A DNA stretch of 64,000 nt from Burkholderiales bacterium (GTDB taxonomy: Bacteria; Pseudomonadota; Gammaproteobacteria; Burkholderiales; Casimicrobiaceae), in assembly GCA_025354165.1 (NCBI GenBank), contig JANXNI010000032.1, positions 248,001 to 312,000 of the forward strand, written 5' to 3'. The position numbers and the translations under genes were made by a program. The notes below the pieces were generated by a model. That model saw only the letters and a program-made list of their open reading frames with translations. It was not told where the DNA came from and did no database searches. Below are positions 1,621-49,792 of the stretch, one piece after another (the stretch's first letter is position 1; each line of letters begins with the position of its first letter).

Positions 1621-1625
1621 TCAAA

Positions 1626-1744
1626 GCAACTTCGCGTTGAAACGCTTACTTTAAAAGGGGCGGCGGCCAATAGGTGCAAAAGTCGACTTTTACAAAAATT
1701 AGCCGGTAGCCCCTGTGCAATGGTCGATTCCCGAAAGAGCTATT
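1626..1744. repeat. 120-bp palindromic element, copy 1 (degenerate left arm)
   Basis: This is an interrupted palindrome of about 119 bp whose centre falls on TCGA (1683-1686). The right arm carries TAGCCCCTGTGC (1707-1718), identical to the copy at 49755-49766. The core AGTCGACTTT (1681-1690) is also shared with that copy (49729-49738). The left arm (1626-1663) is diverged but keeps TTGAAA and AGGGGC at the expected spacing. The right end overlaps the stop codon of the convergent Bug receptor gene (1740-1742). See the family finding for the other four copies. Confidence 0.65.
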
Positions 1745-13859: not shown

Positions 13860-13880
13860 GGCTCAATCTAATTGCGCCCT

Positions 13881-13998
13881 ACAGCTCTTTTACGAAATGA
13901 CCTGTGCATGTGGGCTATAGCTATGAAACGCCGCTTATCGACTTCCAGATAATTGCGCTTCTAGCCCATGTATAGTGGCGCTTTCATGCAAAAGCTGT
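13881..13998. repeat. 120-bp palindromic element, copy 2
   Basis: This is a 118-bp interrupted palindrome. The left arm (13881-13917) begins ACAGCT and ends in GTGGGCTA. The right arm (13962-13998) mirrors it, starting TAGCCCATG and ending AAAAGCTGT. The exact centre (13939.5) falls on TCGA (13938-13941). It sits between two convergent genes, 22 bases after the TPR gene stop and 15 bases before the acyl-CoA dehydrogenase stop. This copy has the best internal symmetry of the five. Confidence 0.75.
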
Positions 13999-14013
13999 AA
14001 AGGGAAAATTCCG

Positions 14014-18343: not shown

Positions 18344-18550
18344 ATCCATTTTCCCGAAACGCAAACACGACATTATTGCGCGCCTGCCTTCAGGCTGACC
18401 AACAACAGGTCGGTAGCAAAAATGCTGTGTTTCGTGTGTTTTTCGCCACAAGAGTCCGCGAAATTGATATAAAACCCGGTACGCAAACTTTCAACAGAGT
18501 GTGGTTCCCGCTTCGGGAAACCCACGGTTGTGTTTTTTTTCGGGGGTTCA

Positions 18551-21500
18551 ATGATTTATTCGGATTCAATACGCCGAGCGGCGGCGTTCGGTGCGCTTTT
18601 GTTCGGGCTATCGCTCGCCGGGCTTTCTCATGGTGTGATGGCACCAGAACAAGAGGGAACGAAAGCAGAGGCCATCAACATGCTAGATGCAAGGGTCAAC
18701 GCCAGAGATGCTTGGCAGCGATCGTTGGATGCGCAGCCGCAAGCCTCTGCAAACGGTACTGCCGCGCGCGCTAGCGCAAACTCAACTGTGTCAATCGCTG
18801 CTCAACAAATGCGCGATAACCCGGGCCTCTCAGTGCGTCTGTCCGGTCTAACGGGTGCGCCCAATTCGGTATCCCACACTATGGGAACGCTCACGCAGGC
18901 CGCACCTGGGAAATCAAGCGAATCCATCGTCCGCGAGTATCTACGTGGCTCTGGCGGTACTTTGATGGGACTGTCTGCTGGTGACGTAGACGACCTACGC
19001 GTTCTGGGCGATAGCAATGGCGGCCAGAGTGGTCTGCGCATGCTTCGCGTAGAGCAACAGATCGACGGCATCCCGGTTTTCCAAAGCGAAAGCCGCTTCC
19101 TGATTGATCAGAGCGGCCGCCTGGTGAAGTACGTTGGCGTCATGGTGCCGCGTGCTCGCGCGCTCGTGCCGACAAGCAGCAAAAATCTGACAGCGGCCGC
19201 CGCGTCTTCGCGTCTGTTTGCCAGCATCGGTCGGCAAATTCCGGAATCGTCCTTTAGTGTCAGCGGCTCGGGGGACGGTGGTCGCACCGAGCTCACCGCG
19301 TCAGACGAGTTCATTGCAGGTCCAGTGGTCGCACGCGAGGTGCTGTTTCCATTGGCCCCGGGTGTACTCGTAAAAGCCTGGTCACTGATCGCGTTTACGT
19401 CTGGCAAGAGCGATTGGTATTCGATAGTCGATGCAACGACAGGCGACGTGCTGTGGCGCAAAAACATTCGCGACTATGCCTCTGCGCACGAAGCGCGCTT
19501 CCGTGTTTATGTTCAGGCGGATCGCAAAACACCGGCTGACAGTCCTGCGCCACAGTCTCCAACAACGGCAACGCCAGGTTCCGGATTTCAGGCCGCCGCC
19601 ATCGCGCCGACCGTTGTCAATATGTCCGCGGTTCAGGATATTGTTGCCAGTCCGAACGGATGGATTAACGATTGTCCGGCTGGCGGATGCACAGCGAGCG
19701 AAACGCAGACTTTGGGCAACAACGTTATCGCGTGCGTCGATCAGGTTCAGGGCAATGTGGCAGGCGGCGCAAACCTTTGCGACACGGCAGCCGCTGGCGT
19801 TTTGGACGGCAATGGACGGCCCACTGGAAACCCCGACACAAATAGTCGCAATCGCGACTTCCTCGGCACGACGCCGCGCGATTTCGAGACCAATTTTCTG
19901 CCTGCTCCCCAAGGCGGCAATCCGGAGGCAGGACAAACAGCGACTGGTAACGGTACCAGCGGTACCGCTGCGATTGACCAATTCCGTCGCGGTGTTGTTA
20001 CTCACCTGTTTTATTTGACTAACTGGTATCACGACCAAACTTTCCAGCTTGGATTTGACGAGGCCGCTGGTAACTTCCAGCAGACAAACTTCTCGGCCAG
20101 TGGTGCTGGTAATGATCCAGTTCTTGCGGAGGCGGTGGACGGCTCAGGGACCAACAACGCAAATTTCTCAACGCCACCGGACGGCACATCAGGCCGCATG
20201 CAGATGTACCGTTTCACGGGACCAATAATCGACCGCGATGGCAGCCTCGATGCCGAGATCGTTTTGCACGAGTTAACGCACGGTCTGTCGAATCGCCTTG
20301 TCGGCAACGCAGCAGGCTTGAACTGGGATCACGCGCGGTCGATGGGCGAAGGATGGAGCGATTTCTATGCGCTTTCGTTGCTGAATAACACCAATGCGGA
20401 TGACCCCAACGGCTCCTATGCTTCCGGCGCCTATGCGACTTACAAGTTGAGCGCTGGTTTTACAGACAACTACCTTTACGGTATTCGTCGCTTCCCCTAT
20501 TCGACCAATATTGCAGTGAACCCGCTGACGTGGGCTGACGTCGATGACGTAACTAACGACATGAGTGGCGGCATCACGCCCACGCCCATCACGTTCAATC
20601 TGAATGGTGGCATGGAGGTTCACAACGCGGGTGAGCTTTGGGCTAACACGCTGTGGGGCATGCGCGCAAAGATCATTGCCGATCCTGCGGGCGCCAATGG
20701 CAATGTGCCCGCTGGCAACGTCGCGTCACTGAAGCTTGTTACTAACGCGCTAAAGATGACCCCCATCAATCCGACCTTTGTTGATGCGCGCAACGCACTC
20801 TTTGATGCCGATTGCGCGGTAAGTGCGTGTGGCAACGAGGACTCAATCTGGACCGCGTTCGCTTACCGCGGGTTTGGTTATCGCGCCGATAGCCCCTACG
20901 GCATCGCCGGACGCTATGTGAGCAGTCATACTGGCTTCCATGAGTCGTTTGCCAAGCCGTATCTGGATGTAAAGAACGAAGTAACCGATGTAACGATTCT
21001 TGATTCGGCCACCAACAACAACGGTGCGATCGATCCGGGCGAGTCTTTCTTCATGACCGTGAAGCTGTTTAACCCGTGGCGTGCTGCCGCAAAATCGGCG
21101 ACGGGCATTACCGCTACGCTGACCACCGCGACACCGGGCGTGACGATCTACACGGGCACGGCTACCTATGGAACGATTGCTGCCCAAGGCTCGGTAACGG
21201 GCGGTCAATTCAAAATTGGCGTCTCCACCTCGATGGTGGCGGGTGCCCCGATTGACTTCACGCTCACTACGACGTCCAGCCTAGGAACTACCGCCACAAC
21301 GTTCCGCGTTCGCGTCGGAACTCGTGCGGGCACAGATCCTGTGGTGACGTATTCCAAAGCGGAATCTCCAGCTTTAACTATCGCCAACAGTCGTCCTCGT
21401 GGCGTTTTTTCGGGCATCAGCATTACCGACGACTTCGAAATTGCGGACGTCAATTTCCGTGTCAACAGCATCACGCATCCAGCTGTCGGGGACTTAACGG

Positions 21501-23263
21501 TCATGCTCCGTTCGCCCACTGGAATCGGTACTGATTTGATTTCGCTCGTTGACGGCCTGAATGATTACGGCGGAGCGAGCATAGTCAACATGGTGATTGA
21601 TGATGACGTGGCCGCTATCGCAGCCAACGACATGGTTCAGGCAGTCTCAACGGCTGCGCCGTACACCAAGTCGTGGTTATCTGTTTACAACTCACCATGG
21701 GCGGCATTGGTCGATCCTACGGTTCCAGCGGACGCAGTACTCAATCTGTCGCGCTATGACGGCACCAGCACAAAGGGCACATGGAACGCGCTGGTTGCTG
21801 ATGTATTTAGCGCTGCTGCTGGGGGCGAGCCGACAAACGGAAACGGAACATTTGGTGGCTGGTCGCTACTGGTGACACCGGTTCACTTCAACGTGTCGGC
21901 AGTAACGCCCGCAGCGGTAGTAACAGCGACCAAGACCGTTGCCGGCACATTCCGAGTGGGTGGCACTGTTACCTACACGGTCACGTTGACCAACACCGGT
22001 AGCGGCAATCAGGCCGACAACGCCGGTAACGAGTTCACGGACGTACTGCCCGCAGGCTTGACACTGGTAAGCGCTACCGCCACCAGCGGCACCGCCGCAA
22101 CATCAGGCAATACCGCAACGTGGAATGGTTCGCTGGCGCCACTGGGCGGCAGCGTCACCATCACCATCACAGCCACCGTCAATGCTGGCACGCAGGGCAC
22201 CACGATCAGTAACCAGGGCACGGTTTCCTATGATGCCGATGGCAACGGCACCAACGAGTCCACCGTGTTGACCGATGATCCGGCAGTGGCGGGCGCGGCA
22301 AACCCAACGGTCTTCGCCGTAGCCTTTGCGTCGGTCACCGCCAGCAAAACTGTGAGCGGCGGACCACATGCCATTGGCAGCACTGTGACCTACACCGTCG
22401 TGTTGAACAACAGCGGCAACGCAGCAACGCTGAACAACGCAGGTAGCGAATTTACTGACATATTGCCTTCGGGCCTGACCTTGGTAAGCGCGAGCGCGAC
22501 AGGCGGCACCGCTGTGGCAACGGTGGGTACGAACACCGTCACCTGGGACGGCAGCATCCCTGCCACAGGCAGCGTCACCATCACCATCACGGCGACAATC
22601 AATGCAAGCGCATCGGGCACGATCAGCAATCAGGGCACCCTGTTGGTTGATACCGATCTCAACGGCAGCAACGAAACAACCGTGTTGACTGATGATCCGA
22701 CTGTAGCGGGCGCGGCAAATCCAACCGTGTTCAGCTTGAACTTTGCAACGGTCACCGCAACCAAGACCGTTAGCGTGGGACCACATCCGATTGGAAGTGC
22801 GGTGACCTACACGATCATCCTCACCAACTCGGGCAACACAGCGACCACGGACAATGCTGGAAACGAGCTGACTGACGTTTTGCCGATAGGGCTCACGCTG
22901 ACGGGTGCAACCGCCAGTGCCGGAACGGCCGTTGCAACGATAGCCACGCGCACTGTGACCTGGAATGGCGGCATTCCGGCAGGCGGCGCAGTGACAATCA
23001 CGATCAACGCACTGGTTAATGCGATCGCCGCCAGCAGCATCGTGAGCAATCAGGCGACTTACGCGTACGACGCCGATCTCAACGGAAGCAATGAAAGCAC
23101 GGGCCTCACCGATGATCCAACCGTCGCTGGCCCCGCAAACGCAACAACATTTGCCGCCGATGCACTGCCTCCTATACCGGCTGCTTCGTCAGAAGCACTG
23201 TGGCTCATCGGGTTGATGCTGATGGCGATGGGCGCACTGCGTCTGCGCAGCAAACGACGCTGA
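18551..23263 (+). CDS. Secreted M36 (fungalysin-type) metalloprotease with P domain and DUF11 repeats
   Basis: This 1570-residue exported protein has several parts. After a signal peptide (LLFGLSLAGLSHG) comes an FTP/PepSY-like propeptide (residues about 70-270). An M36 catalytic domain follows, with the zinc site HELTHGLSNRL (first His near residue 573) and the downstream EGWSDFY Glu ligand. Next come a CARDB-like stretch, a P/Homo-B-like domain (FSGISITDDFEIADVNFRV, nucleotides about 21390-21890) and three tandem DUF11 repeats. The protein ends in an IPTL-like tail: a Pro-rich linker, a hydrophobic helix and LRSKRR. It is probably a surface or secreted endopeptidase, trimmed by an exosortase-like or rhomboid-type sorter. 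ATG 18551 has GGGGG just upstream; an in-frame GTG at 18530 was rejected. A strong terminator follows. Confidence 0.9.
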   Translation: MIYSDSIRRAAAFGALLFGLSLAGLSHGVMAPEQEGTKAEAINMLDARVNARDAWQRSLDAQPQASANGTAARASANSTVSIAAQQMRDNPGLSVRLSGLTGAPNSVSHTMGTLTQAAPGKSSESIVREYLRGSGGTLMGLSAGDVDDLRVLGDSNGGQSGLRMLRVEQQIDGIPVFQSESRFLIDQSGRLVKYVGVMVPRARALVPTSSKNLTAAAASSRLFASIGRQIPESSFSVSGSGDGGRTELTASDEFIAGPVVAREVLFPLAPGVLVKAWSLIAFTSGKSDWYSIVDATTGDVLWRKNIRDYASAHEARFRVYVQADRKTPADSPAPQSPTTATPGSGFQAAAIAPTVVNMSAVQDIVASPNGWINDCPAGGCTASETQTLGNNVIACVDQVQGNVAGGANLCDTAAAGVLDGNGRPTGNPDTNSRNRDFLGTTPRDFETNFLPAPQGGNPEAGQTATGNGTSGTAAIDQFRRGVVTHLFYLTNWYHDQTFQLGFDEAAGNFQQTNFSASGAGNDPVLAEAVDGSGTNNANFSTPPDGTSGRMQMYRFTGPIIDRDGSLDAEIVLHELTHGLSNRLVGNAAGLNWDHARSMGEGWSDFYALSLLNNTNADDPNGSYASGAYATYKLSAGFTDNYLYGIRRFPYSTNIAVNPLTWADVDDVTNDMSGGITPTPITFNLNGGMEVHNAGELWANTLWGMRAKIIADPAGANGNVPAGNVASLKLVTNALKMTPINPTFVDARNALFDADCAVSACGNEDSIWTAFAYRGFGYRADSPYGIAGRYVSSHTGFHESFAKPYLDVKNEVTDVTILDSATNNNGAIDPGESFFMTVKLFNPWRAAAKSATGITATLTTATPGVTIYTGTATYGTIAAQGSVTGGQFKIGVSTSMVAGAPIDFTLTTTSSLGTTATTFRVRVGTRAGTDPVVTYSKAESPALTIANSRPRGVFSGISITDDFEIADVNFRVNSITHPAVGDLTVMLRSPTGIGTDLISLVDGLNDYGGASIVNMVIDDDVAAIAANDMVQAVSTAAPYTKSWLSVYNSPWAALVDPTVPADAVLNLSRYDGTSTKGTWNALVADVFSAAAGGEPTNGNGTFGGWSLLVTPVHFNVSAVTPAAVVTATKTVAGTFRVGGTVTYTVTLTNTGSGNQADNAGNEFTDVLPAGLTLVSATATSGTAATSGNTATWNGSLAPLGGSVTITITATVNAGTQGTTISNQGTVSYDADGNGTNESTVLTDDPAVAGAANPTVFAVAFASVTASKTVSGGPHAIGSTVTYTVVLNNSGNAATLNNAGSEFTDILPSGLTLVSASATGGTAVATVGTNTVTWDGSIPATGSVTITITATINASASGTISNQGTLLVDTDLNGSNETTVLTDDPTVAGAANPTVFSLNFATVTATKTVSVGPHPIGSAVTYTIILTNSGNTATTDNAGNELTDVLPIGLTLTGATASAGTAVATIATRTVTWNGGIPAGGAVTITINALVNAIAASSIVSNQATYAYDADLNGSNESTGLTDDPTVAGPANATTFAADALPPIPAASSEALWLIGLMLMAMGALRLRSKRR
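21900..23170 (+). repeat. Three tandem DUF11 repeat units within the protease gene
   Basis: The 3' quarter of the protease gene encodes three consecutive units of about 140 residues. Each begins near TKTV or SKTV, continues with a TYTV-type strand, contains DNAGNEFTDVLP or a close variant, and ends with a DGNGTNES or DLNGSNES Asp-rich loop and LTDDP. Nucleotide similarity between units is high over roughly 410 bp, so recombination or copy-number change between strains is likely. This is coding repeat structure, not a separate element. Confidence 0.85.
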
Positions 23264-31032: not shown

Positions 31033-31152
31033 AAGCAGCTTTTTGATGAATTGCTTATTTTACTAGGGCTCGATGCGGTAAACGCCTCAAGTCGATATTT
31101 GGTCAATTTAGCGTATACCCCAAGTGCAATATAAGTTTCGGCATCAAGTTGT
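31033..31152. repeat. 120-bp palindromic element, copy 3 (diverged)
   Basis: This 120-bp copy lies in the 342-base spacer between grpE and the S9 peptidase. The left arm starts GCAGCTTTTTGATGAA and ends TAGGGCT (31073). The right arm ends in CAAGTTGTT and carries ACCCCAAGTGCA. TCGA at 31092-31095 is within one base of the geometric centre (31092.5). Divergence from the other copies is larger, but length, arm ends and centre agree. It is upstream of both divergent genes. Confidence 0.55.
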
Positions 31153-31163
31153 TACATGAGAAT

Positions 31164-36507: not shown

Positions 36508-36515
36508 TTTGGTTT

Positions 36516-36634
36516 AACAGCTTTTTCATCTATCCACCACTGCATTGGGGCTACAGTTGAATATCGTTCATTTTCGACTTGTGTCGTAAATAGCTGATAG
36601 CCCTCATGCAGCGGCGATTCTGACAATAAGTTGT
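36516..36634. repeat. 120-bp palindromic element, copy 4
   Basis: This 119-bp interrupted palindrome lies between the convergent sigma factor and amidase genes and fills almost the whole spacer. The left arm begins AACAGCTTTTT (36516-36526, same as copy 5) and ends GGGGCTA. The right arm carries TAGCCCTCATGCAGCGG and ends in AAGTTGT. TCGA (36574-36577) lies at the centre. It ends one base before the amidase stop codon at 36636. Confidence 0.7.
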
Positions 36635-48420: not shown

Positions 48421-49674
48421 ATGAAGAAAACAATTTACGGCGTTGTGGTCGCCGTGCTGGGTGCCGTATTAGGTGCGGGCGCGATGTTTATATTCGGCGT
48501 CGGCAAACCGGCCATCCCTGTTGCCGGCGGCACACCACCAACATCAACGTCGCCCGCAACCGCCGCAACAGCAGCCCCCGCAAAGTCTGGTGACTCCGCA
48601 TCGGCAACGGCGGGCGCAGCTAGCAAAGGCACAAATGCCGTCGGATCTCAAACGGGCACGGGCGCACCGGTCGAACTGGGCAAGCCGGAAAAACTTAATT
48701 GGCCAAAAACGGTGACGGCGGTGGGCAGCTTGCGCTCTGACGAGTCCGTGATCGTTCGCGCCGAACAATCAGGCCGCATTGTTGCCCTTAATTTCAAGGA
48801 AGGTCAGCCGGTTCGCATGGGTCAAATGCTCGTGCAACTTGATGATTCGGTCGCTCGCGCCGAGCTGGAACAATCGAAAGCCAATCAGAAATTAGCGAAG
48901 GCGAAATTTGATCGCGCGGTTGAATTAAAAGAGCGCAATTTCATCTCGGGTCAAGCCAAAGACGAGGCCGAAAACGCGATGCGTGTGGCGGATGCTACGG
49001 TATCGTTGTCGGAAGCAAAGCTCACGAAGCTTTTCATCAAAGCGCCGTTCGCTGGTACCGCAGGTTTGCGTACGGCGAGCCTTGGCGATTACGTGAAAGA
49101 CGGTCAGGACATCGTGAATCTGGAGAAGACGGACCCGATCAAAGTGGATTTCAAAATCCCGGAGGTGTTTCAGTCAAAAGTGCGCGTGGGCCAATTGCTG
49201 GCGGTGACGCTCGACGCGCTGCCGGGGCAGCCATTTAGCGGTAATGTTTATGCGGTGAATCCGCAGCTTGACACAGCAGGTCGCGCTTTGGTGCTGCGTG
49301 CGCAGATGGCGAATAAAGGCGGTCTGCTCAAGCCCGGTATGTTTGCCCGTGTGCGGCTCACGTTGTCAGATACCGGCGACGCGGTGGTGGTGCCGGAGCA
49401 GGCCGTGGCGATGCAGGGCGAGGATCAAATCATGTATCGCGTGGTGGATGGTCGCGCGCTACGGACCAAGGTTGAAGTCGGGCAGCGCCGCGACGGCAAA
49501 GCGGAAATTGTTGACGGTATCGGCGCCAGCGACACCATTGTGATCGCCGGTTGGCAGCGCTTGCGCGACGGCGCACCCGTCCGCCCGGCTGGCGGTGGCT
49601 CGGCTCCGGCGGAAGCGAAGAAAGAGGCCGTGGGCGTGGCACCTGCGGCGCCTGCTGCCAAGGAAAAAGGCTAA
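48421..49674 (+). CDS. RND efflux periplasmic adaptor
   Basis: This is a 417-residue membrane-fusion protein of the HlyD/MexA type. An N-terminal hydrophobic anchor (TIYGVVVAVLGAVLGAGAMF) is followed by a low-complexity Ala/Thr/Ser linker (residues about 40-75). The biotinyl-lipoyl strands come next (IVALNFKEGQPVRMGQMLVQ), then a short coiled-coil hairpin (LEQSKANQKLAKAKFDRAVE) and the beta-barrel domain (IKVDFKIPEVFQSKVRVGQL). It links an inner-membrane RND pump, whose gene follows, to an outer-membrane channel. No outer-membrane channel gene is nearby. A 120-bp palindromic element begins at its stop codon. Confidence 0.92.
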   Translation: MKKTIYGVVVAVLGAVLGAGAMFIFGVGKPAIPVAGGTPPTSTSPATAATAAPAKSGDSASATAGAASKGTNAVGSQTGTGAPVELGKPEKLNWPKTVTAVGSLRSDESVIVRAEQSGRIVALNFKEGQPVRMGQMLVQLDDSVARAELEQSKANQKLAKAKFDRAVELKERNFISGQAKDEAENAMRVADATVSLSEAKLTKLFIKAPFAGTAGLRTASLGDYVKDGQDIVNLEKTDPIKVDFKIPEVFQSKVRVGQLLAVTLDALPGQPFSGNVYAVNPQLDTAGRALVLRAQMANKGGLLKPGMFARVRLTLSDTGDAVVVPEQAVAMQGEDQIMYRVVDGRALRTKVEVGQRRDGKAEIVDGIGASDTIVIAGWQRLRDGAPVRPAGGGSAPAEAKKEAVGVAPAAPAAKEKG

Positions 49675-49792
49675 CAGCTTTTTGGTGAAAGCACCGCTTC
49701 ATTGGGGCTGAGTGCTATTTTGGTTAATAGTCGACTTTATTAGTTATTTCCCTTTAGCCCCTGTGCGTAAAGGGTTGGTTGTAAAAGCTGTT
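49673..49792. repeat. 120-bp palindromic element, copy 5
   Basis: This is a 120-bp copy with perfect ends AACAGCTTTT (49673-49682) and AAAAGCTGTT (49783-49792), inner GGGGCT and AGCCCC and TCGA exactly at the centre (49731-49734). It shares the TAGCCCCTGTGC and AGTCGACTTT cores with copy 1 and AACAGCTTTTT with copy 4. It begins inside the stop codon of the adaptor gene and ends 34 bases before the RND pump start, so it lies inside a probable operon. Confidence 0.8.

Follow-up and report, generated by a model that had tools for sequence, protein, structure and literature searches.

The window analysed here, a 64-kb stretch of DNA from a Burkholderiales bacterium, carries five dispersed copies of a palindromic element of about 120 bp. 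All five copies named in the original prediction were recovered by profile, with boundaries within a few bp of those claimed, and codon-model gene calls upheld the statement that all of them are intergenic. Searching the window with a profile of these copies (E up to 10) gave no sixth copy. The copies, with their scores and neighbouring genes, are as follows.

1625..1744, no strand assigned: copy 1, profile score 72.3 bits, between convergent genes for an alpha/beta hydrolase (ending at 1620) and a TctC-family receptor (ending at 1740), from Pfam and gene ends
13880..14000, no strand assigned: copy 2, 83.1 bits, between convergent genes for a TPR protein and an acyl-CoA dehydrogenase (Pfam)
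31034..31154, no strand assigned: copy 3, 67.5 bits, upstream of an S9 peptidase gene (Pfam)
36515..36634, no strand assigned: copy 4, 82.1 bits, between convergent genes for a sigma-70-type factor and an amidase (Pfam)
49672..49792, no strand assigned: copy 5, 86.2 bits, between the genes for an hlyD-type fusion protein and an AcrB-type pump (Pfam)

All five copies have TCGA at their middle or no more than ~2 bp from it (~1 bp was claimed), and the blocks CAGCTTTT and GGGGCTA at the ends of the arms are present as described, varying among copies. Across the centre, 30-32 of 62 gap-free pairs are complementary in the five copies, where chance would give one quarter (15.5). The expectation that most copies touch a stop codon held for four of the five, which have one at most 20 bp away, and failed for the copy at 31034, whose gap was called divergent and has no adjoining stop codon. 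Copy 5 starts on the TAA stop codon of the hlyD-type gene, which is co-directional with the AcrB-type gene. Copies 2 and 4 each have a counterpart at the orthologous place in the sister genome G001. Elsewhere in the window, 18530-23263 encodes a protein of 1577 residues in which DUF11 domains accompany an M36 fungalysin-type peptidase domain.

The idea of a family depended on further copies elsewhere in the host genome, G000 (4.72 Mb, 97 contigs). In a first look with a sequence-only model, 150 of 1526 candidates were scored and all 150 matched; since the site is symmetric, many of the 1526 were entered twice, once per strand. A census regardless of score covered 441,871 bp, made up of contig C72 (361,871 bp) and 80 kb from the start of contig C4. 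It returned 38 copies that score above 15 bits, with the remaining hits below 10 bits and a maximum of 8.6 on reversed sequence. The family claim therefore stands. Thirty-five of the 38 copies are 110-122 bp long (median 120), the other three measuring 64, 72 and 99 bp, and the density of 86 per Mb extrapolates to ~406 copies per genome. The census and the genus-wide matches described below support a dispersed family of constant length and without a known name; no published description of such a family was found in literature listings, whose scope lies mostly outside subscription journals.

A profile of 80 gap-free G000 copies holds 99 bits of information across 120 columns. Its blocks are placed on copy 5 as follows.

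49675..49682, no strand assigned: left end block CAGCTTTT (model columns 5-12, profile of 80 copies)
49690..49709, no strand assigned: left lateral dyad region, ending GGGGCT (model columns 20-39)
49731..49734, no strand assigned: central TCGA, the overall dyad (column profile)
49756..49775, no strand assigned: right lateral dyad region, beginning AGCCCC (model columns 86-105)
49783..49790, no strand assigned: right end block AAAAGCTG (model columns 113-120)

Counted from the dyad, CAGCTTTT lies at ~54 bp, TGAAA at ~44, TGCAT at ~32 and GGGGCT at ~26; in the 80 G000 copies AT-only pairs lie ~13 and ~4 bp from the dyad and TCGA on the dyad itself. The GGG stands at 97-100% in the G000 column profile. 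A second, lateral symmetry centre is found 33-34 bp either side of the dyad; among the centres tested it ranked first in three further species (G005, G013 and G007) and third in G000. AT-rich minima, read from the table, fall ~4, 13, 23.5, 31-35, 43.5 and 52.5 bp from the dyad, a spacing of ~9.7 bp. In the G+C spectrum the peak is at 9.5 bp for the whole half, where 5 of 2000 column shuffles attain the power seen at 10-11 bp, and at 7.25 bp for the flank alone, where 45/2000 attain that power. Information content is strongest at 13.5 bp, and 2/2000 shuffles attain its 10-11 bp power. Contact with the element is likely to occur about once per helical turn, the spectra being mixed and giving no exact period.

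The original prediction had offered selection for a long hairpin RNA as one source of the symmetry. We counted Watson-Crick cells at dyad partners and compared them with the number expected from independent columns. Observed and expected complementary cells were 2443 and 2435.3 of 4640 in G000 (80 copies), 318 and 313.0 of 660 in G005 (11 copies), 484 and 496.5 of 960 in G013 (16 copies), and 1121 and 1120.0 of 2700 in G007 (45 copies). The positive control, 16 tRNA acceptor stems, gave 97 against 39.8 expected, of 112. A pair count on 12 copies told the same story, with 62.2% paired against 63.3% after shuffling within columns and 40-45% in slid registers: although pairing is far above that of slid registers, nothing beyond the shuffled controls is left once letters are redealt within columns. 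Selection for a long hairpin RNA is contradicted by this absence of covariation in four species. The shuffle result refutes the hairpin reading of the element, not the family, and the dyad symmetry resides in the sequence, not in pairing. Small excesses were seen at the AT-only pairs 49/76 (48 against 40.6, of 80) and 58/67 (48 against 42.0, of 79). Pooling 104 copies from all groups gave 3179 of 6032 where 3126.8 were expected, or 0.0086 per pair on average (standard error 0.0053); in such a pool, mixing of species can by itself produce an excess.

Inverted repeats inside one half, picked out by eye in L154, L160, L173 and L174, were rejected as a general hairpin, pooled half-arm dyads being close to independent columns; the half-arm dyads departed most from independence in G013, with 91 pairs against 79.5 expected, of 272, at the register adjoining the best one. 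L173 (G008) and L174 (G003), each 3′ of an acyl-CoA dehydrogenase gene, are copies of the G013 dialect whose left half contains a perfect G+C-rich hairpin with a T run after it, resembling an embedded terminator.

The eight strongest column dependencies are all between neighbouring columns. Neighbour states are AG or TA at columns 59-60, CT or TA at 65-66 and TT or AA at 49-50. The two half-sites take up their states, AG/TA and CT/TA, independently of each other (Fisher p 0.75, from the 54 of 80 copies that could be counted). Independent half-sites together with neighbour dependence would be the behaviour expected of a duplex read by a two-fold symmetric protein. Neighbour dependence by itself is not proof of one, and is frequent in other kinds of DNA too.

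Comparison of copies within and between genomes separated constraint from transposition. Among G000 copies, identity in low-information columns is 0.306 against 0.315 expected (3160 pairs), and the closest pair of the 80, with both orientations compared, is 69% identical. Between G000 and G001, fourfold sites are 0.537 identical (n=6374); in orthologous elements the figure is 0.819 for high-information and 0.417 for low-information columns, from 7 of 8 orthologous pairs, the remaining pair being gapped. Over their whole length, orthologous copies exceed unrelated ones in likeness by little: identity is 0.60-0.77 in the eight orthologous pairs, and for unrelated copies it has a mean of 0.651 and a maximum of 0.782. 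Conserved columns at 82% identity between sister species, against 54% at fourfold sites, support the proposal that selection keeps sequence, symmetry and length.

G001 carries 51 copies in 398,589 bp, of which 9 have two-sided homology in the G000 DNA compared. Eight of these 9 are present in G000 and one is absent, with a bias toward presence from the 3 sites that were obtained via a gene beside a G000 copy. Read by eye, the single filled/empty pair has unrelated flanking sequence, with neither a target duplication nor a clean empty site visible. Present-day MITE-like transposition, the other explanation put forward originally, is at odds with the random identity of low-information columns, with a closest pair of only 69% and with copies at orthologous places. 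We conclude that the element is under purifying constraint and is inherited in place rather than jumping.

The gap occupied by copy 5 was readable in 14 of the 15 genomes with the hlyD gene. Twelve carry a copy (that of G011 weak, at 12 bits), and it is absent from G009 and G016 among these 14 genomes of the genus. With the general profile, 8 of the 12 matches begin at the stop codon, and that of G002 begins 225 bp further on. The genomes without a copy, G009 (2.5 Mb) and G016 (2.6 Mb), are small, and in them hlyD and acrB nearly abut. At the acyl-CoA dehydrogenase gap a copy is found in 7 of 15 genomes, so places are also gained or lost. The sigma-factor gene occurs in 3 of 17 genomes, with an adjoining copy in G000 and G001 and none in G006.

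Lineages differ in the sequence that they carry at these places. Among the hlyD-gap copies, those of G013 and G003 score well only with a profile built from G013 (75.9 and 70.0 bits, against 7.5 and 16.9), and those of G007 and G002 score highest with one built from G007 (53.0 and 29.0 bits, against 8.8 and 15.7). Consensus blocks are GGGGCT in G000, GGGCT in G005, CGGTCGTT with CGACC in G013, and TGGGC with CCC in G007, the GGG block of G000 being changed to GGTCG in G013; the sets behind these dialects were gathered by iterating each genome's own profile, which favours uniformity. Within the genus the G000 model matches 15 of the 16 other genomes; its match counts are 11 in G009, 3 in G010 and 0 in G016. 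It matches none of 19 genomes from other genera of the family and none of 24 from other families (0/43 outside the genus), a result that falls short of proving absence there since diverged dialects escape this model. Copy 5 as a query had no match in plasmid or phage collections.

A repeat of ~60 bp of the kind carried by Comamonadaceae-type genomes, AATAGCT..GCGCTT-N7-AAGCGCTAGAGGCC..TTT, was observed in another family of the same order (f49; L247, L249, L255 and L257-L286). Allowing at most 3 mismatches, it occurs 67 times in G126, 24 times in G234 and 4 times in G321, with none in the other five searched genomes of that family and none for a reversed control pattern in all eight. We considered it as a half-element and kept it apart, as its profile is no closer to the element than column-shuffled ones: 794 (G000), 124 (G005), 587 (G013) and 1249 (G007) of 2000 shuffles equalled or exceeded its likeness, on a harsh score that puts several true dialect pairs below 0 as well, so that the two may still be related.

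By our own codon-model gene calls, none of the 38 census copies lies inside a gene, a few overlapping a gene end by at most 30 bp. The flanking genes are convergent for 14 copies, in the same direction for 16 and divergent for 8. Among G000 gaps of at least 110 bp, 14/27 convergent gaps are occupied against 24/120 others (p 0.0013), and in 8 of the 14 convergent copies both stop codons lie within 20 bp of the element ends. Occupancy in G007 was 13/22 convergent against 47/133 other gaps, in a less clean set with 11 of 60 copies centred in a called gene. There was no evident convergent preference in the smaller samples from G005 (2/5 against 14/60) and G013 (3/12 against 14/77).

Spacing was compared with random draws of gaps of the same orientation class. 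The coefficient of variation (CV) was 0.636 in G000 against a random mean of 0.986 (12/5000 draws as low), 0.428 against 0.906 in G005 (3/3000) and 0.603 against 0.917 in G007 (0/3000); for the 17 copies of G013 the difference was not significant (0.688 against 0.911, 321/3000). Spacing is thus more even than random in three of four species; in G000 the average is about one element per 10-11 kb. In G005, which is a single contig, 150 scored matches look spread round the chromosome by inspection. Locus L026 holds two copies ~1 kb apart (405-525 and 1501-1615), and the closest pair in the census (C72 and C4) is separated by 2259 bp.

Terminator-like hairpins were found in 0/14 occupied and 5/18 free convergent gaps of at least 90 bp in G000 (p 0.052). 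Tandem gaps (1/16 occupied, 6/80 free) and divergent gaps (0/8 occupied, 0/40 free) gave no signal of exclusion. Exclusion of terminators from element-occupied convergent gaps is only suggestive.

Several explanations can be set against these data. A functional hairpin in RNA or single-stranded DNA, acting as terminator, stability element or cruciform, would fit the folding energies of the five copies, which run from -23 to -52 kcal/mol for both strands when 20 bp of flank is included (a figure with no shuffled comparison), and the two G013-dialect copies of G003 and G008 in which a perfect hairpin precedes a T run. It is contradicted by the absent covariation, no Rfam covariance model matched the window at its gathering score, and a scan found a terminator-like hairpin with a T run in 0/38 census copies; we hold it to be extremely improbable. 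A relic of an ancient MITE, two 60-bp ends once recognised by a transposase and now decaying or co-opted, would fit a dispersed, inverted-repeat, intergenic family seen in one genus only with the model used, and the one G001 copy that lacks a counterpart in G000. The symmetric end blocks of the 80-copy profile are terminal inverted repeats such as a MITE has, but the similar, recently spread copies of a MITE are missing. Unconstrained columns are saturated while conserved ones are held, 110-122 bp is kept in 35/38 copies, and the one filled/empty case has neither a visible target duplication nor a clean empty site. Such an origin seems to us distinctly unlikely.

At a strong site for DNA gyrase or topoisomerase IV, a dimer would be centred on the dyad, with both arms wrapped round it and cleavage close to the central 4 bp. 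The element is similar in size, dyad and 4-bp centre, convergent gaps are enriched in G000, and the 10-11 bp power in information content is rarely reached by shuffles. In the passages drawn on here, the E. coli enzyme has a 130-bp symmetric motif with phased G+C and probable indirect readout, and favours some BIME-2 (PMC6379681); gyrase cleavage specificity is described as varying among species (PMC12324340). However, the E. coli flank period is 10.75 bp whereas the element has AT minima at ~9.7 bp and a G+C peak at 9.5 bp, within mixed spectra, and the E. coli motif is degenerate whereas the element is base-specific (GGG in G000, GGTCG in G013) in a manner resembling direct readout. We hold such an enzyme site to be unlikely. 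Lineage dialects at orthologous places, even spacing and intergenic sites close to gene ends would alternatively suit a self tag like an uptake sequence, for which a receptor prefers element DNA, and hundreds of copies are maintained at their sites, and shifted from one dialect to another, by biased uptake and recombination. For DUS, both dialects and inverted pairs at terminators are on record (PMC3630211), as are AT-tract shape effects and a relatively even distribution for USS (PMC7811141). The tags described there are short, 10- or 12-mers for DUS and a 31-bp model for USS, with USS ~1 kb apart. The element has 120 bp and 99 bits, recurs every ~11 kb and, unlike a DUS or USS, which is also frequent in genes, was found inside genes in 0/38 cases. 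An uptake tag would explain the dialects and the even spacing, not the length or rarity of the element, and we rate it as quite improbable.

The best overall explanation, to which we give an even chance on the sequence evidence, is that the element is a two-fold symmetric duplex docking site for a putative protein assembly, serving as a chromosomal anchor or gene-end boundary. A multimeric protein with sequence specificity, or more than one such protein, would bind the double-stranded 120-bp site along its length and meet each half independently. That some protein binds the element is highly probable from these patterns. The DNA might lie on the protein or be wrapped round it, as proposed because AT-only positions recur roughly once per helical turn; wrapping is weakly suggested. 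Some 400 complexes could then act as chromosomal anchors, forming boundaries, topological or transcriptional, at which supercoil domains end or read-through from one convergent gene into the other is blocked. Even spacing, convergent-gap occupancy in G000 and the possible exclusion of terminators (0/14 against 5/18) make an anchor or boundary the likeliest role, one that we would put a little short of an even chance. A pure gene-end boundary is unable to explain the copy within the apparent hlyD-acrB operon or the 8/38 divergent copies, and the unclear context in G005 and G013 also speaks against it. In a bolder form, doubtful at present, a dedicated complex would wrap the ~400 evenly spaced, inherited sites in exact register as a nucleosome-like boundary system, its specificity and the sites shifting together between lineages to give genome-wide dialects.

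What the analysis shows is a family of fixed length, with symmetry and no pairing, under purifying constraint, inherited in place, with lineage dialects and even spacing. If one protein complex occupies the sites, then, as duplex recognition sites repeated along a bacterial chromosome, they would be of unusual length and specificity. How bacteria set domain and transcription boundaries would then become testable from sequence, and the dialects would constitute a natural experiment in which a protein and hundreds of sites shift specificity together. More generally, palindromic repeat families need a covariation test before they are labelled as hairpins.

Among known repeats, ERIC is an imperfect palindrome. 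This 127-bp repeat of enterobacteria resembles the element in being of similar length, dispersed, mostly intergenic and near transcribed genes. What sets it apart on present data is its description in a review as a MITE whose terminal repeats measure 7 bp, with target duplication, terminal TA and effects on mRNA stability (passages of PMC2229807). The CIR repeats of Caulobacter and Brucella are likewise ~110 bp, intergenic and conserved between species, and unlike the element are reported to have RNA secondary structures with two arms and to carry a GANTC methylation motif (passages of PMC2229807). DUS and USS, as their cited accounts describe them, share with the element genome-wide copies, lineage dialects, a relatively even distribution and inverted pairs at gene ends; they are much shorter and denser than this fixed 120-bp unit, whose census copies all lie outside genes. 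The E. coli gyrase motif and strong gyrase sites offer a likeness of another kind, a long symmetric duplex site with phased base composition, and BIME-2, which gyrase favours, is also intergenic (passages of PMC6379681). Whereas that motif is degenerate, 130 bp long and has a period of 10.75 bp, the element combines 99 bits of information with base-specific blocks, lineage dialects and AT minima ~9.7 bp apart.
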